DNA of 34,443 nt from Candidatus Cloacimonetes bacterium HGW-Cloacimonetes-1 (GCA_002841975.1 PHBQ01000023.1:1-34443), one strand, 5' to 3'. Shown: positions 2,161 to 13,800, counted from the first letter of the stretch. Numbers and translations: made by a program. The notes: generated by a model not told the origin, from the sequence alone.

Positions 2161-2470
2161 TTAGTAATGGAAAAACTGGATCTGAAGAGGGGAGAAGGTA
2201 AATTGTGACGTTTGGAGTTCATGGCGACATGAAAGCCGGCATTAATCAGAAGTCTCGAAGTCGTCACGGACTTCAATGATCATTGTCACGGCTTTTGAAT
2301 GGCGGTATCTTTCCCGGGACTACTACTGGCTCCAATCTCAGGAGATGCCCTCGCGACTCCCTTGTGAAGCCCAGGTTGGCACCCGGGAAGCGCGCCGGAA
2401 GTACTCATGTGTGCAAAATCCCGAACCTTGTGACAGACTCGGGATTTCACTTTTCATGCGGATTTGGTTT
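2161..2470. other. Intergenic stretch without a supported gene, locally GC-rich
   Basis: This stretch separates the start of the hrcA operon from the end of the minus-strand gene at 2471. Short plus-strand ORFs here lack a ribosome site and resemble no protein I know. The part from about 2300 to 2400 is clearly richer in G+C than its surroundings and has inverted TTCCCGGG (2310-2317) and CCCGGGAA (2382-2389) blocks. It could be a decayed dispersed repeat. The right end carries a terminator-like hairpin, listed separately. Confidence 0.4.
2416..2447 (-). terminator. Hairpin downstream of the 152-residue gene
   Basis: AAATCCCGA (2416-2424) pairs perfectly with TCGGGATTT (2439-2447) around a 14-nt loop. 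It lies about 25 nt past the stop of the minus-strand gene at 2471. Read on the minus strand only a short T run follows, so it would be a moderate rho-independent terminator. Confidence 0.5.
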
Positions 2471-2929
2471 TTAGCCGATGTCGTCCACCAGTGACTCGCT
2501 ACCGCTTACATCGTGCAGATATCCCGCCTCGATTGCACCGTAAACATTGATCACAGGCGCAGGCTGAGAAACGATATCCTCGATGGTTACCACTGCCAGG
2601 TCAACCGTCGCCGAGTTTTCTTTTTGCCAAGCAAACATCATCTTTACAAAGATGGCATAGGCAGTAGGAGCCAACATGGTTTTGGGCACGTTTTCCCGAC
2701 CGTTCAAAACACTGTAAGTCTTGAGATTGCCCTTGTAATCCGGATCTGCCTCTTTGTAGACAGTGCTCAGATTCTTCATGATATTACCAATAGTAGTGTT
2801 CTGCTCCGTGAGAACGGGCATCACAAATTTGCGACCGATGCAGATATTCCCCTGGCGATACGCTCCGTAGGTAAATTCATCCACAGTTCCCGAATACGTT
2901 TTGATGCCGAAATTGAATTTGACTTTCAT
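2471..2929 (-). CDS. Hypothetical protein, paralog of the protein at 8878-9315 (repeat-associated family)
   Basis: I do not recognise the function of this 152-residue soluble protein. It is clearly related to the 145-residue product at 8878-9315. Shared features in order are KTYSG / KAYSG near residue 11, a YxxYR...N block, an IGRK / IARR block followed by PV, a central Tyr-rich helical part, and a C-terminal V-x-AxEAGxLxxVxGxExLV block. There is no signal peptide, transmembrane segment or known catalytic motif. The ATG at 2927-2929 has a good GGAGG site (GGAGGTTTTGTTATG). Upstream lie the sequence GTCGTCCAATATC (minus strand, 3015-3003) and two 100-bp hairpin repeat units. The same 13-mer precedes the paralog, and the repeats follow it. 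The gene is real, judging from conservation between the two copies. Confidence 0.8.
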   Translation of the reverse strand: MKVKFNFGIKTYSGTVDEFTYGAYRQGNICIGRKFVMPVLTEQNTTIGNIMKNLSTVYKEADPDYKGNLKTYSVLNGRENVPKTMLAPTAYAIFVKMMFAWQKENSATVDLAVVTIEDIVSQPAPVINVYGAIEAGYLHDVSGSESLVDDIG

Positions 2930-3002
2930 AACAAAACCTCCAAGTTTTCATTATGGCAGATATTGTACCCTCCGAGTTGTGAGGATTTTATCTGCTCTTA
3001 CT

Positions 3003-3015
3003 GATATTGGACGAC
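3003..3015 (-). promoter_or_regulatory. 13-nt motif shared upstream of both paralogs (copy 1)
   Basis: GTCGTCCAATATC on the minus strand lies 73 nt before the ATG at 2929. The identical 13-mer, in the same orientation relative to its gene, lies 33 nt before the paralog at 8878 (8832-8844). Its role is unknown; it could be a regulatory site or simply retained ancestral sequence. Confidence 0.4.
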
Positions 3016-3039
3016 GCTGTGGTAAGGCCCGGCGACCAC

Positions 3040-3216
3040 GTAGCCGGAGGATGCCATTCCTCCGCAAATGAACAAGACGGAGCTTCGGCAAGCTCCGGTA
3101 CGAAAACTCCATACCCCAATCCTCACATCACGCAATCCCGTAGCCGGAGGATGCCGATCCTCCGCAAATGAACAAGACGGAGCTTCGGCAAGCTCCGGTA
3201 CGAAAACTCCACACCC
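3040..3216. repeat. Tandem double-hairpin repeat array, two units with 100-bp period
   Basis: Two units start at 3040 and 3140 and are nearly identical over about 75 bp. Each has hairpin A (CGGAGGA ... TCCTCCG), a spacer containing AAATGAACAAGA, then hairpin B (CGGAGCTT-CGGC-AAGCTCCG, a perfect 8-bp stem with a 4-nt loop), followed by TACGAAAACTCCA. The first unit is linked to the second by a CCTCACATCACGCAATCCCG segment. The reverse complement of the same unit occurs at 9311-9410 with the same 100-bp period. The structure is REP/BIME-like. The period, shared arms and shared linker are seen directly; a dispersed repeat family in the genome is inferred. Confidence 0.85.
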
Positions 3217-3418
3217 CCCACCAGTTATTATCATTCCAAGACACTTTGCCATCAGTCTGTTCCCCCTGTTTTAATGACATTCTAACCGCCATATTTTACA
3301 GTCTCTTACAACTGTGATTATGGGCGTTGAAACTCTTGACAAATATCCCCGCTCCTGATAATGTCTTCAGTATAGTTCAACGTTTTGAGCTAAATAAACA
3401 GCGAAGGAATATTACAAA
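3217..3418. other. Intergenic sequence before the 180-residue gene
   Basis: No gene is supported here. Together with the hairpin repeats and the 13-nt motif it fills the 489-bp gap between the divergent genes at 2929 and 3419. A possible promoter at 3336-3364 is listed separately. Confidence 0.4.
3336..3364 (+). promoter_or_regulatory. Possible sigma70-type promoter for the 180-residue gene
   Basis: TTGACA at 3336-3341 is followed by GATAAT (3357-3362, 15-nt spacing) or TAATGT (3359-3364, 17-nt spacing). It would give a leader of about 50 nt before the ATG at 3419. The -35 box is perfect and the -10 box ambiguous. Confidence 0.45.
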
Positions 3419-3961
3419 ATGATACCAAAATTGAATGAACTGATCAATGCCTACCCCGACTCGGAGGGAGCAAAGGCTCTCCGGGTCCTAACACGTCAGC
3501 CCAATACCGATATCCACTGTATCAATCTTACGCATTTCATCGATCCCCCGGATTATTCATCTCTAAATGAGTTGTTGTCTTGTGAGCTATCACCAGAGAT
3601 CAACCCCTTTGAAGCAATTTCACAAATCCCCATGACCGACCATCAAGCCATCCGTGAAATTTACTCGCGGCTCAATCATCTGCTTCGCCAAAAGGCAGAG
3701 ATTCTCGGCTTTGATCCAAATGCCACCACAGATGCCCTCGACACGGAGATCACGGCGCTCAAACGCTATGTGAGCCAATGCCTCCGTCCCGGCGGTAAGA
3801 TACGCAATTGTAACGACGAAGAGCGGCGGGCATCTCAGCGGATCAGTGTAGCGATCAAGAGACTGCTCCAGAAAGCGGAAGCGGACCACCCCGAAGCAGT
3901 AGCCATCGTTCGGAACAATCTGAAGATGGGACTGTATTTTCGGTATGAGGAACTGAATTGA
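3419..3961 (+). CDS. Hypothetical protein with a helix-rich C-terminal module usually found at the end of large regulators
   Basis: I cannot name this 180-residue soluble protein. The N-terminal half (LNELINAYPDSEGAKALRVL) is helical and leucine-rich. The C-terminal 60 residues have basic and amphipathic helices (RASQRISVAIKRLLQKAEADHP) ending in VRNNLKMGLYFRYEE. From memory, that pattern (ER-RVAV-KAI-RAL-KI...HP-L...L---I-TG-YC-Y) terminates many large bacterial ATPase or TPR regulators. Here it is fused to almost nothing else, so it may be a free-standing version. No signal peptide or membrane segment is visible. An AAGGA sequence lies about 10 nt upstream of the ATG, and a TTGACA promoter lies about 80 nt upstream. 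It opens the plus-strand part of the island before the primase. The C-terminal resemblance is inference. Confidence 0.7.
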   Translation: MIPKLNELINAYPDSEGAKALRVLTRQPNTDIHCINLTHFIDPPDYSSLNELLSCELSPEINPFEAISQIPMTDHQAIREIYSRLNHLLRQKAEILGFDPNATTDALDTEITALKRYVSQCLRPGGKIRNCNDEERRASQRISVAIKRLLQKAEADHPEAVAIVRNNLKMGLYFRYEELN

Positions 3962-4096
3962 GAGTAACCGGAAATCATCTATCATCCAAGTGGGTTACAC
4001 CGCTATATCCACTATTGCGTAAAATTGGTTCAGGAGTGTATTCATATATATTACATTGCATTAGCGAGTGCCGTGAACTAACGCGTCACTTTTTTC

Positions 4097-4125
4097 TTGA
4101 CAAAACTCGGTCTTTGGTGTATTTG
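4097..4125 (+). promoter_or_regulatory. Possible sigma70-type promoter for the small ORFs and primase operon
   Basis: A perfect TTGACA at 4097-4102 is followed after 17 nt by TATTTG (4120-4125). It lies about 45 nt upstream of an ORF with a strong ribosome site (4169) and would drive transcription towards the primase gene. Confidence 0.5.
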
Positions 4126-4168
4126 ATTTCTTAACGATCAAACAAATACTTTGTGTAAAGGAGTAACA

Positions 4169-4363
4169 ATGAAGAACACACAGATCACAGGAGCCAAAAT
4201 GAGAGCAATAGGAGGTAAACTGATTGTAACGAAGCAACCCGATAATGGAAGCTTCATGAGAAAGAAACAACAAGTTTTAAACCAAGGAGATTTATATGGT
4301 ATTAAAACAAACTACACAAAATGTAGCGCAGCCCAAGGCTGTATGGGATATCCCCCGTTATGA
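4169..4363 (+). CDS. Possible small protein of 64 residues, unknown
   Basis: The ORF begins MKNTQITGAKMRAIGGKLIV and is basic, without a signal peptide or membrane segment. Support comes from a strong ribosome site (AAAGGAG, 6 nt before the ATG) and a TTGACA promoter just upstream. Against it, I recognise no family, and a second ORF with an equally good ribosome site (4296) overlaps its 3' part in another frame; both cannot be strongly constrained there. It may be a leader peptide or a small DNA-binding accessory protein of the replication module. This is a low-confidence call. Confidence 0.3.
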   Translation: MKNTQITGAKMRAIGGKLIVTKQPDNGSFMRKKQQVLNQGDLYGIKTNYTKCSAAQGCMGYPPL

Positions 4364-4532
4364 AACGTCAAAAGAAAAGGGTCGAAGAAAACTGCAATTT
4401 CCTTCGACCTCAAAACAACTTTTCATTGTCTTATGTTGTGCAAGTTACTTCATAGTAGCGTTCAACAATCCTGTCAAGAAAAGTTTTAGTAATTTCGGAT
4501 TTTTACTTAATTCTATAGGAAGGTCAAAATGA
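4296..4532 (+). CDS. Possible small protein of 78 residues, unknown, overlapping the primase start
   Basis: The ATG at 4296 follows a near-ideal AAGGAG-ATTTAT site. The first 35 residues (MVLKQTTQNVAQPKAVWDIP...) are basic and polar. A hydrophobic stretch (QLFIVLCCASYFIVAF) follows and overlaps DNA that also forms a hairpin at 4380-4409. The ORF ends 4 bp inside the primase gene. It matches no family that I know. The good initiation signal may mark a real short gene, or be a remnant whose end has been disrupted. Confidence 0.28.
   Translation: MVLKQTTQNVAQPKAVWDIPRYETSKEKGRRKLQFPSTSKQLFIVLCCASYFIVAFNNPVKKSFSNFGFLLNSIGRSK
4380..4409. terminator. Hairpin upstream of the primase, possible attenuator or terminator
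   Basis: GGTCGAAG (4380-4387) pairs perfectly with CTTCGACC (4402-4409). On the minus strand it is followed by CTTTTCTTTT, a terminator-like tail. On the plus strand the tail is weak. It could insulate the primase operon from upstream transcription. Confidence 0.4.
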
Positions 4533-5578
4533 GCTCCACCAATACGCAACCTATGCAAAACCAGGAAATCGAAGCCCATGAACTCAATCTGGCACTGTCA
4601 GAACGGTGCACAATAACCGTCTCCGACAGAATCACTAACACCCAAGGTCACAAACGTAGTCTTGGACAAGTAATACAGGGCATTCGCCAAGGTGAATTTG
4701 AGAAGTGGAGTTTCGCTAATCGTATCGCAACGATTCGGAATGTCGACACCTCTCAGCAGAAACGGGATTTGACAAAGAGCACCCTACCTTGGTTCTCCAT
4801 GGCCGAGTTCGACGGAACAAGATGCGCTGCTAACACCAAACAAAGTTGGGGCATCGTACTGGATATTGATCACGTTGGTACCGACGAAGCTATTGAGATC
4901 TGTAAATCGGAATTGATAGCCATTCCCTGTGTGAAGTATGTCTTTCGCAGTCCCAATGATGGCGTTAAAGCAATTGTGCTCTTTGACGAACCCGTAACTG
5001 AAAAAGATGAATATAGTCAAATCTTCAATTACTGCGCAAACTACATATTGGATGCCACCGGCTACAAGGTAGATCCCACGTGTAAGGATATTTGCAGAAT
5101 CCACTTCTTCAGTCACGACCCCCGATTGCGGGAAGACAAGTTCGCGGCGCCACTATCCGTCAGAGAAGCTCTCGCTATGTCTCAGGAAGTTGCACTGCAA
5201 GAACGAGTACTGGGTGTAATCAACTTAACTTCAAACATTATGCACCAAATCGAGACAATCAATTATAACTACAATGACCCCTCCCAGACGATAGTCTATC
5301 CGAGCAGCCTGGAATTGGACTTGCAAAAAGCAGCTCAGATCATCGAAGTACTCAACTCTTGTGTTATCGACTACCTGGACTGGATCAAAGTTGGTCTGGC
5401 GCTCAAGAATGTCTTTGCTGAAGAGGGTTTAGGCCTCTGGCTGAGGTTTTCCGGGAATCCCAACTATAACGACACAGAGGATAGCCTGGCTCGAAAATGG
5501 TACAGCTTTCCCTCTCAAAATTCATGCAACTTTGGGAGCATAATATACGTTGGGGAAAAGCATGGATATCAAAAATAG
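4529..5578 (+). CDS. DNA primase-like protein: VirE_N/BT4734-like domain plus PriCT-2 domain
   Basis: This is probably a primase subunit of a mobile-element replication module. Residues about 45-210 match the VirE_N/BT4734-like archaeo-eukaryotic primase fold. They include GIVLDIDHV with two acidic residues (D112, D114) of the metal site, KYVFRSPNDGVKAIVLFDEP, and GYKVDPTCKDICRIHFFSHDP with further conserved Asp and His. Residues about 265-345 form a PriCT-2 domain (DYLDWIKVGLALKN ... LWLRFSGNP ... KWYSF ... FGSIIYVGEKHGY). The ATG at 4529 has an AGGAAGG site. The 3' end overlaps the helicase gene by 17 bp, so the two are surely co-translated. Splitting primase and helicase into two overlapping genes differs from the fused P4 alpha protein. 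Family membership is firm; the exact biological role is inferred. Confidence 0.85.
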   Translation: MSSTNTQPMQNQEIEAHELNLALSERCTITVSDRITNTQGHKRSLGQVIQGIRQGEFEKWSFANRIATIRNVDTSQQKRDLTKSTLPWFSMAEFDGTRCAANTKQSWGIVLDIDHVGTDEAIEICKSELIAIPCVKYVFRSPNDGVKAIVLFDEPVTEKDEYSQIFNYCANYILDATGYKVDPTCKDICRIHFFSHDPRLREDKFAAPLSVREALAMSQEVALQERVLGVINLTSNIMHQIETINYNYNDPSQTIVYPSSLELDLQKAAQIIEVLNSCVIDYLDWIKVGLALKNVFAEEGLGLWLRFSGNPNYNDTEDSLARKWYSFPSQNSCNFGSIIYVGEKHGYQK

Positions 5579-7001
5579 TAAGCTAACCAAATCTAAGGGG
5601 GAGCGCTCCGGCGTTCCCCAATCCATCCCCTGGCGCAAATTGCTATCTGACACCCACGACAACACGATCGCATCTGCTTTTGCAGAGCATTACTGTACCA
5701 ATCATCGTTTTGAGCTCGACAACAAGGCATGGCTGGTATGGGCAGACCGCAGGTGGCAATACGATGTACACACCCAAGCACTGTATAGCAGTATAGAACA
5801 AATGGTGAATGACCTCAAAGCCTTCAACAAGTCCAAATCCGTTGAAACGATAGGCGGAGTTATCAAAAAGCTCTCCAATGCCCGCTCACGCTCAAATGTT
5901 GTCACCATCCTCAGCACCATCCCCTCTGTGGGGATCCGCCACTCTGATCTGGATGCTCACGCACATCTCATTTCACTGTTCAACGGCGCATTCAACCTGG
6001 ATACCGGCCAGTTCATTCACGACGAGAATGCCCTCAGACCGCTCTATCTGCACAAGCAAATGCATGTCGCTTATGACAAAGATGCCAAGTGTCCGCAGTG
6101 GATGGAGTTTCTGGACAAAATATTTCTACAAGATCAGGACCTAATCCACTTCGTACAAAAGATCCTTTCGCTCTCGCTCTATGGCAATGTGAGTGAGGAA
6201 CGGCTGTTTCTGGCGTATGGTAGCGGTAAGAACGGCAAGACCACCTTGTATAACGTGATGAAGCAGCTCCTGGGCTGTTATGCGGTTGCCATCCCCAGTA
6301 TGCTGCTGCTCCAGAGCCGCAATAAAGACCAACGCATTGAATACGAAGTCAACGATTCTCTGGAAAATGCCAGGCTCGCGATTGCCAGTGAATTGCCGGA
6401 ACAGTGCTCCTTTGACAGCATCTGTCTCAAGCAGTTAAGTTCGCGAGACAATATCAATGCCAAGAAGATCTACAATCCGGTGTACTCGTTCCGACCGTCT
6501 CATCAGTTGCACGTCCATGCGAACTATCTGCCCAGCTTCAATGCTCAGGATAGGGCACTGCTGCGCCGGATCTTGGTGATCCCCTTTGACTATCGGGTTC
6601 CGGATAGCGAAACCATTGAAAACTACGATGTCATCCTACTGCGTGAAGCATCGGGTATCCTCAATTGGTTGATCGAGGGATGGGCTCTGTACAAGAAGGA
6701 AAAGCTCGTGGTTTTGCCAGCCAGAGTTCAGGAAATCATGCAAAACTATACCGATGATTGCGATATTTTGAACAATTTCATCGATAACTGCTGCACCCGC
6801 GGAGTTGATCTAAAGTGCACACTCAAAGAGTTTTACGATGTGTTTAGCAGTCAATACGAGAATCGTAGAATTCAGCAAAAAACACTGTCAAAACGCTTGC
6901 AAGATGCCGGATTTGAGGTGAGAGAGAGTTCCGGAAACAAGAAGCATATCTTTGGTTTAATGCTCTCCAGTCAACAAGATAACAGCACTTATATGATGTA
7001 G
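5562..7001 (+). CDS. P4/D5-type replicative helicase (superfamily 3, phage/plasmid primase C-terminal family)
   Basis: This 479-residue protein is the helicase partner of the preceding primase. The N-terminal part (about 20-200) matches the D5_N / phage-plasmid primase region, including LISLFNGAFNLDTGQF. A Walker A loop, YGSGKNGKTTL, starts near residue 219. A Walker B-like NARLAIASELPE follows, then QLHVHANYLPSFNAQDRALLRRILVIPF, the SF3 sensor/arginine-finger region typical of P4 family helicases. The C-terminal part may be a winged helix (LKEFYDVFSSQYENRRIQQKTLSKRLQDAGF). The chosen ATG at 5562 has GGGGA upstream; an in-frame TTG at 5550 is less likely. The gene overlaps the primase gene by 17 bp and is followed by nested inverted repeats. 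A phage, satellite or integrated plasmid origin is inferred. Confidence 0.88.
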   Translation: MDIKNSKLTKSKGERSGVPQSIPWRKLLSDTHDNTIASAFAEHYCTNHRFELDNKAWLVWADRRWQYDVHTQALYSSIEQMVNDLKAFNKSKSVETIGGVIKKLSNARSRSNVVTILSTIPSVGIRHSDLDAHAHLISLFNGAFNLDTGQFIHDENALRPLYLHKQMHVAYDKDAKCPQWMEFLDKIFLQDQDLIHFVQKILSLSLYGNVSEERLFLAYGSGKNGKTTLYNVMKQLLGCYAVAIPSMLLLQSRNKDQRIEYEVNDSLENARLAIASELPEQCSFDSICLKQLSSRDNINAKKIYNPVYSFRPSHQLHVHANYLPSFNAQDRALLRRILVIPFDYRVPDSETIENYDVILLREASGILNWLIEGWALYKKEKLVVLPARVQEIMQNYTDDCDILNNFIDNCCTRGVDLKCTLKEFYDVFSSQYENRRIQQKTLSKRLQDAGFEVRESSGNKKHIFGLMLSSQQDNSTYMM

Positions 7002-7019
7002 CTTATCAAGTTAGAAAGG

Positions 7020-7113
7020 TAGGTAAGTTAGGCAGTTTCCTATTATAGTCTCTATAGATAAAACTTGTATAGAGCCACAATATAGAATTTACCTAACTTG
7101 CCTAACTCACCTA
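7020..7113. repeat. Nested inverted repeats between the helicase and Sel1 genes
   Basis: The outer arms TAGGTAAGTTAGGCA (7020-7034) and TGCCTAACTCACCTA (7099-7113) pair with one mismatch. The inner arms CTCTATA (7050-7056) and TATAGAG (7068-7074) pair perfectly. The right side also contains a directly repeated CCTAACT (7092-7098 and 7101-7107). The block fills the gap between two convergent genes. It could be a bidirectional terminator or an origin/iteron region for the primase-helicase pair. The structure is seen; the function is inferred. Confidence 0.6.
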
Positions 7114-8424
7114 TCAATCAATACCAATATTGCTGAGCGGTATTCTAGAACTAAATTCTTTCATGAACAGCTTTACTTGATCAGCAATCTCATCCTTTTC
7201 GTCTTGAGTAAGAGAATTACAGAATAAGTGCTTTTCAGCGGACGCAGTTTTATCTCCCAAGCCTGAAGCAATAAGACACCAATGATATGCTTTTTTTGTA
7301 TTTAGGGGTGCTCCTATTCCCTTGAGGTAGCACTCCGCAAGGCAGTATGCTGAATCGGAATCTCCCTGTTCAGCAGCTAATCGATGCCATTTAAAAGCCT
7401 CTTCATTGCTTTTCGGAAACAGTACTCCAGTTGAATACAAAAATCCCATCATGGTTTGAGCTTTTGCCAGTCCACACTCTGCAGCGAGACTATACCATTT
7501 CATTGCTTCAATGGGGTCTTGTGCAACTCCCTCACCTGTTGCATAGCAATGACCGATATAATAATTAGCTTCCAGATTTCCCTGAGCAGCAGCCATTCTA
7601 AACCATCTAAAAGCCTCACTATAGTTATATGATACATCTAAGTAAATCTTGCCAAGCTCTAGTTGTGCTGATGCTACTCCTTTGAAAGATGCCTTTTGAA
7701 TCAATTTCAAAGCTTTAATGGGGTCTTTGTCAACACCTATTCCGTCATTATAGCACATACCAATTTTATAAATAGCTATTGGATATCCTTTGTCAGCAGC
7801 TAAACGAAACCATGTAAAAGCTTCAATAGTATCCTTATTAACACCCACTCCGGCGGCATAGCATAATCCAACTCTGTAACATGCTTCATGATCTCCTTGA
7901 TCAGCAGCCAAACGAAACCATTTATATGCTTCTGTAGTGTTTAATAATACACCTGTTCCATGAGAATAACACAATCCGAGCATTATTTGTGCTCCTACAA
8001 CTCTATTATCAGCAGCCAAACGAAACCATTTCACGGCTTCATTGAGGTCTTTGTCAACAACAACTCCATTAGTATAGCATAAGCCAATATTGAAATAAGC
8101 CCTCGGATCGCCATTATCAGAAGCTAACTGAAACCATTTAAAAGCTTCAACAAAGTCATTTGATACCCCATCACCATTGTAATAACTAATTCCTAGCATT
8201 GATTGAGCCCCAGCAACGCCCTTATCAGCAGCTAATCGAAACCATTTCACAGCTTCAATGGGGTCTTTTTTTACACCATCTCCGTCAGAATAGCACATCC
8301 CTACTTTAAATATTGCCTCGGGGTCACCTGTTTTCGCAGCTACGAGCAACCTTTTCAATCGGGCATTAATGCTTAATGCCTGACCTATACGATCCTTAAT
8401 CAAATGAATTAAGTTATATCCCAT
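7114..8424 (-). CDS. Sel1-like repeat protein
   Basis: This 436-residue protein is almost entirely Sel1-like (TPR-related) repeats of about 36 residues. Ten units are visible, each ending in a version of EAxKWFRLAADxG and opening with CYxxGxGVxxD (for example SDGDGVKKDPIEAVKWFRLA near residue 45). Unit 7 is shortened. A short N-terminal helical part precedes them, and a polar C-terminal helix (QDEKDEIADQVKLFMKEF) closes the protein. There is no signal peptide, so it is probably cytosolic and acts as a protein-protein scaffold. GGAGG lies 5 nt before the ATG at 8422-8424. A TTGACA promoter lies about 115 nt upstream. It converges on the helicase gene. Its partner cannot be told from the sequence; SLR proteins near mobile-element genes are often accessory cargo. 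Confidence 0.9.
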   Translation of the reverse strand: MGYNLIHLIKDRIGQALSINARLKRLLVAAKTGDPEAIFKVGMCYSDGDGVKKDPIEAVKWFRLAADKGVAGAQSMLGISYYNGDGVSNDFVEAFKWFQLASDNGDPRAYFNIGLCYTNGVVVDKDLNEAVKWFRLAADNRVVGAQIMLGLCYSHGTGVLLNTTEAYKWFRLAADQGDHEACYRVGLCYAAGVGVNKDTIEAFTWFRLAADKGYPIAIYKIGMCYNDGIGVDKDPIKALKLIQKASFKGVASAQLELGKIYLDVSYNYSEAFRWFRMAAAQGNLEANYYIGHCYATGEGVAQDPIEAMKWYSLAAECGLAKAQTMMGFLYSTGVLFPKSNEEAFKWHRLAAEQGDSDSAYCLAECYLKGIGAPLNTKKAYHWCLIASGLGDKTASAEKHLFCNSLTQDEKDEIADQVKLFMKEFSSRIPLSNIGID

Positions 8425-8539
8425 TTAGCCTCCAGAATATTATACATATTTACAGATTTCAAACTAGAAATTGATAGGTTCAAAGCGGGGTGGATAACCC
8501 TTGTTGATACACCTTACCCAAATCTCTTTTCTGAATCGA

Positions 8540-8568
8540 TAGTTAAATTTACTATAATAATATGTCAA
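8540..8568 (-). promoter_or_regulatory. Sigma70-type promoter for the Sel1-repeat gene
   Basis: On the minus strand a perfect TTGACA (8563-8568) is followed after 17 nt by TAACTA (8540-8545). It lies about 115 nt upstream of the ATG at 8424. Confidence 0.55.
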
Positions 8569-8622
8569 GAAATTATATCTACTTCATGCATGTCGCATTG
8601 TTTTAACCCTCAATTTTGTGAT

Positions 8623-8633
8623 GGGGGGGGGGG
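8623..8633. repeat. Homopolymer run of 11 G
   Basis: Eleven consecutive G occur in an otherwise AT-rich intergenic stretch. Such runs are prone to slippage. It lies about 55 nt upstream of the sel1 -35 box and about 245 bp upstream of the gene at 8878, outside any supported coding region. Confidence 0.85.
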
Positions 8634-8831
8634 CAAAGTGATGCAGGAGTGGTGTGGTAATGGCTTGATCATTTCCCTAAACTCATCCGGGCTATGCAAA
8701 ATTGAAGGTCAAAACTGGATTGCTCCAATCGCACTTTACGGGAGAGGGATTGGGGGTTACAGAGCATCTGTTTCATCATCCTCGGGGACAGCTGGGGCTT
8801 TGTCCCATCCGTCTTTGAGTATCCGCTTTGT

Positions 8832-8844
8832 GTCGTCCAATATC
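8832..8844 (+). promoter_or_regulatory. 13-nt motif shared upstream of both paralogs (copy 2)
   Basis: GTCGTCCAATATC lies 33 nt before the ATG at 8878. The same 13-mer in the same gene-relative orientation precedes the paralog (3015-3003, minus strand). Its function is unknown. Confidence 0.4.
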
Positions 8845-8877
8845 TATAGGAGCACGAAACTCCAAAAGAGGTAAAAC

Positions 8878-9315
8878 ATGATAGTATCATTCACGAACAT
8901 TTTGAAAGCATACAGCGGGAAGTGCGACGGCCTGGTGTATATGTACAACCGACGCTTGAACAAGGTAATAGCACGCCGCATGCCCGTCTTTACACCCCAC
9001 GCCGGGAATCAGCGTTTGAGCGAAATCTCCCGCAATCTGAAGGCACTGGAGATCAGTGAAGCCTATCGCAACGACATCCGTTTTTACACAGAGATGCATC
9101 GCATGGCATACCCAGAGAGCAGCGTTTACACTTGGTCAAACATGTTCACAAAGCTGATGTGGTCGCTTCACAGGGCTATTGGAGTGGATTTGGCTACGAT
9201 CACCAGAAACGAGATTGAGACCCAGGAACTGCCCTGTATCAGCGTTAAGGCGGCTGTGGAAGCCGGACTCTTGCCAGCGGTGCAAGGTTACGAACGCTTG
9301 GTGGCGTTGATGTGA
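8878..9315 (+). CDS. Hypothetical protein, paralog of the protein at 2471-2929 (repeat-associated family)
   Basis: This 145-residue soluble protein is homologous to the 152-residue product at 2471-2929, and I know no function for it. Shared blocks are KAYSGKCDGLVY near residue 10, NRRLNKVIARRMPVFTP, the Tyr/Asp-rich region AYRNDIRFYTEM, a WSNMFTKLMW helix (aligned with AYAIFVKMMFAW), and the C-terminal VKAAVEAGLLPAVQGYERLV. It is basic overall, but no DNA-binding motif is obvious. AGAGG precedes the ATG at 8878. The stop codon (9313-9315) lies inside the first bases of a 100-bp hairpin repeat unit, so gene and repeat are physically fused. The shared 13-nt motif lies upstream. Two diverged copies that preserve the same blocks argue that the family is under selection. 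Confidence 0.82.
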   Translation: MIVSFTNILKAYSGKCDGLVYMYNRRLNKVIARRMPVFTPHAGNQRLSEISRNLKALEISEAYRNDIRFYTEMHRMAYPESSVYTWSNMFTKLMWSLHRAIGVDLATITRNEIETQELPCISVKAAVEAGLLPAVQGYERLVALM

Positions 9316-9434
9316 GGTGTGGGGTATGGAGTTTTCGTACCGGAGCTTGCCGAAGCTCCGTCTTGTTCACTGGCGGAGGAATGGTATCCTCCGGCTACGG
9401 GATTGCGTGATGTGAGGTGTGGGGTATGGAGTTC
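9311..9434. repeat. Double-hairpin repeat unit plus start of a second, inverted relative to 3040-3216
   Basis: One full 100-bp unit (9311-9410) is followed by the first 24 bp of a second (9411-9434), which repeats TGTGAGGTGTGGGGTATGGA exactly. It contains the same two stems as the left array, reverse-complemented (CGGAGCTT-GCCG-AAGCTCCG and CGGAGGA ... TCCTCCG). The partial second unit ends abruptly at GGAGTT. The unit begins within the stop region of the preceding gene. Confidence 0.85.
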
Positions 9435-9758
9435 AAGGCACTGATTCAAATTCAAAGTTATCCCTATGCTCCGCAGTGCTTTTGGACTTCATGAAGGTTT
9501 TTCCCCTCTCCCCAGCCCTCTCCCACAAGGGGCGAGGGAGCAACAAACCTGAATCTACGCATTCTTACAAAGATCTGCAATCCAGAGAACGAAGATCTGC
9601 AATCCAGAGAATGAAGATCTGCAATCCAGAGAACGAAGATCTGTCATCTCGTTGTAAAGATCAGCGGAATTCGGCAGACCTATCACCTGTGGATTCTGGC
9701 GCAGACCGTAACGGGTCAGGCACCGTGTATTCACATCGAGATGAATATTAGATAGAGT
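9435..9758. other. Intergenic stretch with dispersed-type palindrome and short tandem repeats
   Basis: No gene is supported in these 324 bp. A C-rich palindromic element (CCCTCTCCC ... AGGGG, GAGGGAG; about 9504-9541) resembles dispersed extragenic elements seen in many genomes. A 22-bp tandem repeat follows at 9570-9643. The rest up to the end of the nuclease gene at 9759 shows only a weak GACC/GGGTC hairpin. Confidence 0.5.
9570..9643 (+). repeat. 22-bp tandem repeat, three full copies and part of a fourth
   Basis: The unit AAGATCTGCAATCCAGAGAA plus two bases (CG or TG) occurs at 9570-9591, 9592-9613 and 9614-9635. A partial copy (AAGATCTG) begins at 9636. The copies differ by one base. 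It has no spacer structure, so it is a minisatellite rather than a CRISPR array. Confidence 0.85.
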
Positions 9759-10833: not shown

Positions 10834-13800
10834 ATGAGATACACACTTATATTGATAATTCTTACGCTTATGAGCGTTTTAGTAGCAGCTCCGATAGAGA
10901 ATATTGCGACACACTCTTCAGGAGTACAGGTACGCATTGAAAATCTGCGGTCAAATCCTATTGATGAAGCAGATTTGAGCAATGATGAAGAAGGTTATCC
11001 TACATCTACTTTAATCTCGCGTACATTTGCGATGCCATACAGTGATGCACAAGTAGTGCTCAATAATATGACTTGGAATGTTTTTGATGCCCAAGGCAGA
11101 GTAATGTATGAAAGTGTTGATAACAATTCTGATGACATTGCTGTGGCTCATCATTTCAATTTTAGAGAAATGAATGGTTTTACAGTGACGATCCAAACAC
11201 AAAAGAATATTGGAAACAACAAAGCTACTTTGAAAAGCGTAGAATTTGCTCTGCAATGCCAGAATCCAATAGCTATACCTGCGTCCGTATCTCCGGCTTT
11301 CGTGGAAGCATACCGGCAGTTGGCAGATAACTACAGCACTTCCTATTTACGCAATTTACCCCTTTCCAGACCGAAATTATTGATTATCAGCCATCAAGGT
11401 CTATCAAGCTACATTGGTGAATTTGTAAAGTGGAAGAGACAAAAAGGCTTTGAAGTCTATGTCGTAAACAAATCTGATATTGGCAGTTCAGCCGAACAGA
11501 TCAAGAGTTTTATCCTCTCACATTATTTGCAATATGGTACAGACAATCTGCTGTTTATGGGTGACACAACCGGAAACTTTGCGATCCCCACCAATATCTA
11601 TCCCTCTCCGGATGGCACCGAACAAGACGCTGATGATAATGCCTATGTCAACTTGGTTGGCGATGACTATTTCCCCGAAATGCTGGTGGGAAGGATGTCC
11701 TTTGCTGATCCCAACGAGTTTTTGATCATCACAAATAAATCTATCGTTTACGAAAGAACACCATATATGACCGACACCAATTGGATGCGTAGAGCCTTAG
11801 TCGTAGCAGGTAACTATGCCGAAGGTACGCTGCGTCCATCTACACCTGTTACAATGTCCCGTTCTTTGCGGGAAAGAATGCTCGAATATGGTTATGCTCA
11901 AGTGGATACGGTTTTCTACCCATTTTCTCCGGCTCCCGGTACTTCTGCCATCCAATCTTCCATCAGCCAGGGTGTACAATTTGTCAGTTATCGCGGTTGG
12001 GGAGATGCCAACGGCTGGCATTATCCTTCTTTCCATATTCCGGACTTGACCAATACATACAATGGCCCCAAAATGCCGGTCGTGTATTCCATCGTTTGTA
12101 ACACCGGTGATTTTAACAATTCGGTGAATCCTTCATTCGGTGAGAAATGGATGCGGATGGGTACAATGAGTAATCCTGCCGGTTGCGTCGCCTTTATGGG
12201 ACCCTCAGATTTGCATACTCGTACCAGATTGAACAATTCTATCTCTACTGGTTGTTTCCGCGGAATATTCGACTTTGGAGTTCGTAATTTTGGATCCAGC
12301 GTTTTGGCAGGAAAGATCGAGCTTTACAAGAACTTCCCGAACGACTTAGCTCCGGGAATGTGGATACCTTTTTACTTCCACGTTTATAACATTTTATCCG
12401 ATCCTACGCTCAATCTCTGGGTTCTGGCACCTACTACTATTCCTGCCAGTTCGATAGTAGGCGGTAACACCTTTGCGCAGTCAGACAATCATATTTCTAT
12501 ATCCGATCCTGCTCTGGAAGGAGCTGTTGTAACCGGAACAAAGAACAATGTAGATTATTCTTATACGACTGTTCGCAATGGTATGGCAGTATTGCCTTTC
12601 AATCCCGAACAGACCGGTAACCTGACTCTCACGATATCAAAGAATAACATGGTGCCTTTGGTGGCAACTCTTACGGCATCGGAAACGGCAACTCTGGGAT
12701 TGCAAAGTAATTCTCTGAGTGGCCAGGTAGTTAATGCAAATCAGACCCTGAATCTGGAGCTGACCTTCAAGAACTACTCTGCTGCTACATTGACAAACCA
12801 GAGTATCGTCTTGAGCTGTGAACCAGCCGGAACGGTGACTATAAACAATGCCCAACAGACGATCAGTTCAATCGCTCCCGACGGTACTCAGACTTTATCT
12901 TACCAGATTACAATTGGTAGCCAAGTTATGCCGCGTGAAGTGCTGACATTTGGAATCGCAATTGCACCGGGTGGCGTCCATCATGCTTTCCAGTTATTGA
13001 GTGGTGGCGCAGAATTTGAGATACTTGGTAGTTCCGGTGTTTTAAATCTCGGTCAGAATAGCCCTATTTCTTTTGAAATTCAGAACAAAGGTAATGTCCC
13101 ATTGAGCAACGTTTCTGTGCAGATCCTATCATTGACAACGGCGATGACTATCACAACGAACAATGTAAATATGGGGAATTTTGCCATTGGTGAAACTAAA
13201 ACTCTCAATACTACTATGCAAGTACAAGCCAATGCCTATAATGGCAGAAACCTGCCGATTCGGATGAATTTCAGTGACAATAGCAATTACAGCATCAGTT
13301 CCTTCTATGCTGTTACAGCAGGCACACCGACCAATACGGATCCCACCGGACCTTGTGAATATGGCTATTTTGCCTATGACAGTAATGATCTCACATATCC
13401 TGAACATCCTACCTATCAATGGGTGGAAGTTGACCCTCGTGATGGGGGACAGGGGACTGTATATCTGGTCAAAGATGATGGTTCACGTGTAGTTGATTTA
13501 CCTTTCACGTTCCGTTTTTATGGTGTCGATTACAATCAAATCACAATCTGTTCAAACGGGTGGATGTCCTTTGGTGCTACCTGGATGACGGATTTTTACA
13601 ACCATTATATCCCCGCAGCCCTGGGTCCCAAATCTATGCTTGCCCCTTATTGGGATGATCTTAAGGGCATGAAAACGGGTGATGCAGAATTTAATGATAT
13701 GCGCATTTGCTACTGGTATGATGCCGCAAACAATCGCTATATCGTGGAATGGAACGATGCCTACAATCAGTACACCATTGAATTGGGTACCGGTGCCTCT

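Follow-up and report, generated by a model that had tools for sequence, protein, structure and literature searches.

The window, a stretch of 34,443 nucleotides from Candidatus Cloacimonetes bacterium HGW-Cloacimonetes-1, belongs to a genome of 2.78 Mb in 128 contigs. Within it two small genes, W1 and W2, stand on either side of a group of other genes and are accompanied by repeats.

About 2330..2405, + strand: dispersed palindrome phased at 11 bp, GATGCCCTCGC GACTCCCTTGT GAAGCCCAGGT TGG CACCCGGGAAGC...
2471..2929, - strand: W1, gene of subfamily B encoding 152 aa, pI 5.4 (near neutral to acidic)
3032..3217, - strand: two copies of a ~100-bp hairpin repeat, upstream of W1
3419..3961, + strand: p180, a 180-aa protein with no function assigned, element core; in relatives often divergent from the A or B gene
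4529..5578, + strand: primase-like protein with a BT4734-like N-terminal domain and PriCT_2, element core
5550..7001, + strand: D5_N / DUF5906 helicase-like protein, element core
7114..8424, - strand: Sel1-repeat protein, between the helicase and W2
8878..9315, + strand: W2, gene of subfamily A encoding 145 aa, pI 9.4 (basic)
About 9308..9433, + strand: third copy of the ~100-bp hairpin repeat, downstream of W2

W2 is predicted to be a DNA-binding protein, and the Sel1-repeat protein is probably a passenger. The nearest copy of W1, on contig C43, is 88% identical to it. At 9570-9648 of the window a 22-bp unit (AAGATCTGCAATCCAGAGAACG) occurs three times in tandem.

An earlier note on this DNA had taken W1 and W2 for diverged paralogs, and this is confirmed by an end-to-end alignment with 34% identity (E=5e-20), far beyond chance. 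The genome search with both proteins that the note had proposed places them as two of ten family members there. All 37 same-family Cloacimonadota genomes (the window's and 36 relatives) contain the family, with 1-28 matches each, while beyond the taxonomic family its distribution is patchy; those matches that carry names are Cloacimonadota. The family is Cloacimonadota-specific and consists of small dispersed genes. No relatives were found in the viral contigs searched. Profiles from Pfam, NCBIfam, PHROGs and the PDB gave chance-level matches alone, and none of the ten members in the window genome had a Pfam match above chance. The note had seen no transposase motif in the two proteins, and the HUH motif is absent from the conserved positions of 84 family members; G14, R33, Y70 and K94 are among the invariant or nearly invariant residues. 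Weak AF2 models built on five-sequence alignments (pLDDT 56 and 63) show a beta-hairpin at 19-34 followed by helices, and gave no match with Foldseek.

The family falls into two classes, A, which is W2-like, and B, which is W1-like. The median pI is 9.5 for the basic A proteins and 8.1 for the near-neutral B, with W1 itself at 5.4. Most members stand alone between other genes, and an all-against-all protein comparison revealed no conserved neighbours of the solitary A genes. In draft genomes of relatives many family genes lie less than 1 kb from contig ends, as if the assembly had been broken by repeats.

The earlier note had proposed that W1 and W2 form a cassette with the ~100-bp hairpin repeat. 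The layout is as it described: the repeat has the same orientation on both coding strands, upstream of W1 and downstream of W2, with 92% complementarity between the copies of the two sides, and W2 ends inside the repeat, its last ~8 bases (9308-9315) lying within the margin of the extended unit. The cassette, however, was not borne out. At least 49 matches to the repeat were found in the window genome, the three window copies included, and the expectation that each family member would be flanked by a copy fails, with none within 1.5 kb of any of the other eight (0/8); the repeat is scattered independently of the family. It starts with GTAG (GTAGCCGGAGGATGCC...) and is made of two palindromes, with the GTAG-tagged palindrome GTAGCCGGAGGATGCCATTCCTCCG from 3040 onwards. 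GTAG-type REPs are palindromes of 20-40 bp with a GTAG tetranucleotide at one end (PMC3733652). With its tagged palindrome, its many copies and a RAYT-type gene in the genome, the ~100-bp repeat looks like a conventional GTAG-tagged REP pair. The genome has five Y1_Tnp (RAYT/IS200-type) matches, two of them weak, and no copy of the repeat lies directly beside a Y1_Tnp gene at the Y1 loci examined. While three copies adjoin W1 and W2 in matching orientation, the distribution and the REP-like structure leave virtually no credence to this repeat being their partner, and we have rejected it as such. The note's wider idea, a gene-plus-repeat system with proteins other than RAYTs, is supported, but the repeats concerned are arrays of 11-bp units and not the hairpin.

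In these palindromic arrays, which typically lie 100-400 bp upstream of solitary A genes, 2-4 direct units of 11 bp lead into inverted ones, and the sequence differs from gene to gene. That at locus L096 reads GATTCTTTAAT GACTCTCTAAT GATTCTCTAAT CGG ATTAAAGAATC ATTAGAGATTT and that at L085 is AGCTTATGTCC repeated four times. Array alignments show 11-bp units without a GTAG end, which sets them apart from GTAG-type REPs. Periodicity at a lag of 11 (identity at least 0.62) was present in 27/79 of the 500-bp regions upstream of family genes, compared with 1/73 at -500 to -1000 and 0/84 downstream. A fixed detector, devised once the pattern was known, was applied to genes and controls alike. It found an array upstream of 36/63 A-class genes, as against 35/308 (11%) intergenic gaps taken as controls from the same genomes (p=4e-14), and upstream of 1/14 of the other B genes. 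W1 and its C43 copy sat in the seed alignment, score high and were counted with A, so that these statistics are slightly conservative. Arrays precede 35/51 solitary A genes but only 1/14 of those next to B or p180, a linked set assigned by our own judgement (p=4e-5). About a third of the solitary A genes have no detectable array.

The sequence of the array follows the clade of the protein. Among cross-genus pairs with at least 60% protein identity 83% have the same array sequence, while none of the 459 pairs below 40% identity share one; in a permutation test the link was reached in 0/2000 trials. In one clade, across nine genomes, CCTTAATCAAGCGTTAAT.ATTAACGCTTGATTAAGG lies between about -110 and -125. 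Array sequence and protein clade go together even between genera, so the array belongs to the gene. The arrays could act as RNA, forming a hairpin in the mRNA leader of A, as an attenuator, and in other transcripts, where A would bind it; the inverted repeats are long, the protein is basic and a turn of A-form RNA is also 11 bp. However, among the mismatches in the array stems G-U is not in excess on the gene strand (G-T 44, A-C 36) and, though similar within a clade, the distance from array to start codon spans ~60 to 470 bp overall. We regard a role as RNA as very unlikely.

Copies of the arrays are also dispersed through the genomes. The complete genome G009 has 48 array places in the 1.06 Mb scanned. 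Four sequence families account for all but four of these places, every family having a single copy in front of one A gene. In its first 800 kb all 32 of the 32 copies of three array families are intergenic, and the parent copies of three families lie 146-227 bp before the A genes at 100843, 33932 and 1678030. As arrays occupy roughly a tenth of gaps, this linkage alone is only mildly improbable, and the weight rests on the control-gap comparison and the clade test. One family, Fam3, was found in G009 and as two weak matches in a congener, and is absent from the other genomes searched. The window array at 2330-2405 is one of 23 matches in its genome and belongs to the same repeat family as the arrays before the A genes C17, C90 and C128.

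The palindrome of the C37 clade was found in 8/9 genomes that have the clade gene at 70% identity or more and in 6/19 same-family genomes without it (p=0.013; with a 55% identity threshold, p=0.13). In six genomes one of the retrieved copies immediately precedes the clade gene, and the rest of those retrieved stand free. Several genomes have the palindromes without the clade gene, for example at ~20 places in G015, so that the repeats can outlive the gene or spread without it.

The dispersed copies have ~100 bp in common, non-palindromic tails included, and the differences between them are of whole 11-bp units. MITEs have terminal inverted repeats and a target-site duplication and are mobilised by a transposase. 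The copies here have palindromic units with defined tails; no target duplication was evident at them and no clean empty site was found, the intergenic DNA of the two species of one genus that were compared being too diverged. It could be that the arrays are MITE- or REP-like and moved by another transposase, such as Y1_Tnp, with A using a captured array as a regulatory site. Y1_Tnp genes are indeed present, five in the window genome and three in G009, and an array lies within ~1 kb at 3/8 of the Y1 loci examined, although this is unremarkable where 11% of ordinary gaps have one. Against this, arrays are tied to A by clade and distance, the parent copies in G009 are far from Y1 genes and some Y1-free genomes (e.g. 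G002) have arrays. Mobilisation by another transposase therefore appears improbable. On contig C17 (L042:8187-9097) a Y1_Tnp gene lies close to an array-bearing A gene together with further ~100-bp repeats of the CGCCCGTAAAGGGCTT type, which are also seen upstream of the A genes C116 and, in part, C87. The CGCCCGTAAAGGGCTT-type repeats and the Y1_Tnp gene on C17 are probably a separate RAYT/REP set.

That most solitary A genes have their own type of palindrome upstream and scattered copies of it elsewhere suggests a gene-plus-repeat system unrelated to RAYT/REP. The explanation we favour, and judge fairly probable, is of parent A genes, clade-specific arrays bound by A and dispersed copies, in the layout of RAYT/REP but with an unrelated protein. 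Each solitary A gene would be the parent, with a clade-specific palindromic array upstream. From the basic nature of the protein, the phasing of the units at one turn and the co-divergence of protein and site we infer that A binds its own array, presumably as phased monomers one helical turn apart, and this binding may give rise to autoregulation. The array would be copied as a unit of 80-120 bp, with its tail, into intergenic sites genome-wide. That A itself spreads the arrays is a speculative step.

Alternatively, A could be a sequence-specific regulator or chromosome organiser, similar to ParR or MatP, with the arrays as sites useful to the cell that are not mobilised by A. ParR-parC comprises a small DNA-binding protein with 11-bp direct repeats beside its own gene. 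A genes likewise adjoin 11-bp direct repeats, which resemble autoregulated centromere-like sites, and the basic proteins and the similar distance to the start codon within a clade would also fit. The all-against-all comparison of neighbours, however, revealed no ParM/actin-like ATPase gene adjoining solitary A, nor any other fixed neighbour, and the arrays are palindromic and chromosomally dispersed. As to a ParR-type ribbon-helix-helix, the weak models (pLDDT 56-63) show the beta-hairpin and then helices, with no Foldseek match. MatP, of ~150 aa, has many dispersed chromosomal matS sites; A is also ~150 aa with many dispersed sites, but matS is short and uniform with one protein per genome, whereas the A paralogs are many and their sites long and different. 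The sharing of ~100 bp with non-palindromic tails among dispersed copies, a copy number that varies hugely between genomes and the lack of preference for promoter-side gaps also speak against sites kept for the cell. We consider a regulator or organiser of this kind rather unlikely.

For the layout that we favour, the bacterial example that has been studied well is RAYT/REP, in which a gene goes with dispersed palindromes, and RAYTs are thought to spread REPs. As in RAYT-REP or REPIN (REPtron) systems, the parent gene has beside it a palindrome of which further copies lie scattered between genes, as seen in the control-gap comparison and the G009 families; the repeat families are lineage-specific and repeats can persist without the gene. 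The defining domain of RAYT (TnpA-REP), Y1_Tnp (PF01797) with its HUH motif and catalytic Tyr, is however absent from the A proteins, and we have not assigned the system to RAYT/REP for this reason. The arrays also differ in being 60-120 bp, with 11-bp phased units and no GTAG tag, and a genome has many paralogs, of which several have a palindrome of their own; there is also a shared regulatory box and a companion subfamily, B. CGTC-tagged REPs are also dispersed short palindromes with no known tie to a transposase (PMC3733652). For these no parent gene is known, while the arrays here have no tag and are phased at 11 bp.

No description of Cloacimonadota repeats or of such a system was found in the literature, though most subscription journals lay outside the search and a prior report is possible. 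The protein family, the array architecture and their pairing match no system known to us or found, while parent genes with dispersed palindromes are, as a general idea, known. The origin and persistence of REP-like repeats is an open question, on which an unrelated family with the RAYT/REP layout bears. One genome has several independent gene-palindrome pairs and the family of genomes has dozens, which provide replicates for the co-divergence of repeat and protein, and the clade-by-clade match of protein and 11-bp unit forms a natural data set on protein-DNA specificity. The system may extend to all Cloacimonadaceae-like bacteria, a common group in anaerobic digesters.

W1 and W2 themselves belong to an array-less, element-linked class. 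B often pairs with A around a p180-primase-helicase core and such A genes are without arrays. The order B(-) p180(+) primase(+) helicase(+) ... A(+) is seen again in G025 (L136, reversed), in G009 the p180-primase-helicase arrangement recurs with A and B side by side, and in many relatives p180 is near a family gene and mostly divergent from it. The B-p180-primase-helicase-A stretch (window 2471-9315), which recurs in relatives, has no evident recombinase; it is probably an integrative element. At L135, L137 and L140 there is other cargo between A and B. As a general rule, A and B as the two ends of one mobile element was rejected, as solitary A is commoner and tandem A-B exists.

A double TGTC box near a TATAT element is found in 14/79 upstream regions of family genes and 0/606 control upstreams. 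Many of the A genes have this box, as do at least two B genes, and its form in G009, TTTGTCAC-N8-14-TTTGTCA, has five exact matches in 1.06 Mb, all before family genes. This suggests that the A and B genes with the box are one regulon, and B would, in at least some cases, be co-regulated with A through it. A fuller version of the explanation, in which A, as a new kind of DNA-processing or DNA-binding protein, spreads and maintains its own palindromes independently of RAYTs by a code of one clade to one palindrome, under a common regulator, with B as the co-regulated partner of the element-borne members, seems possible but is held tentatively.

Several B genes are followed by a small ORF of ~50-70 aa that is kept between genera.

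L041, immediately after the B gene at 12021: small ORF
L148:4025-4189: small ORF after a B gene
L153:3987-4187: small ORF after a B gene
L136:9553-9774: small ORF after a B gene
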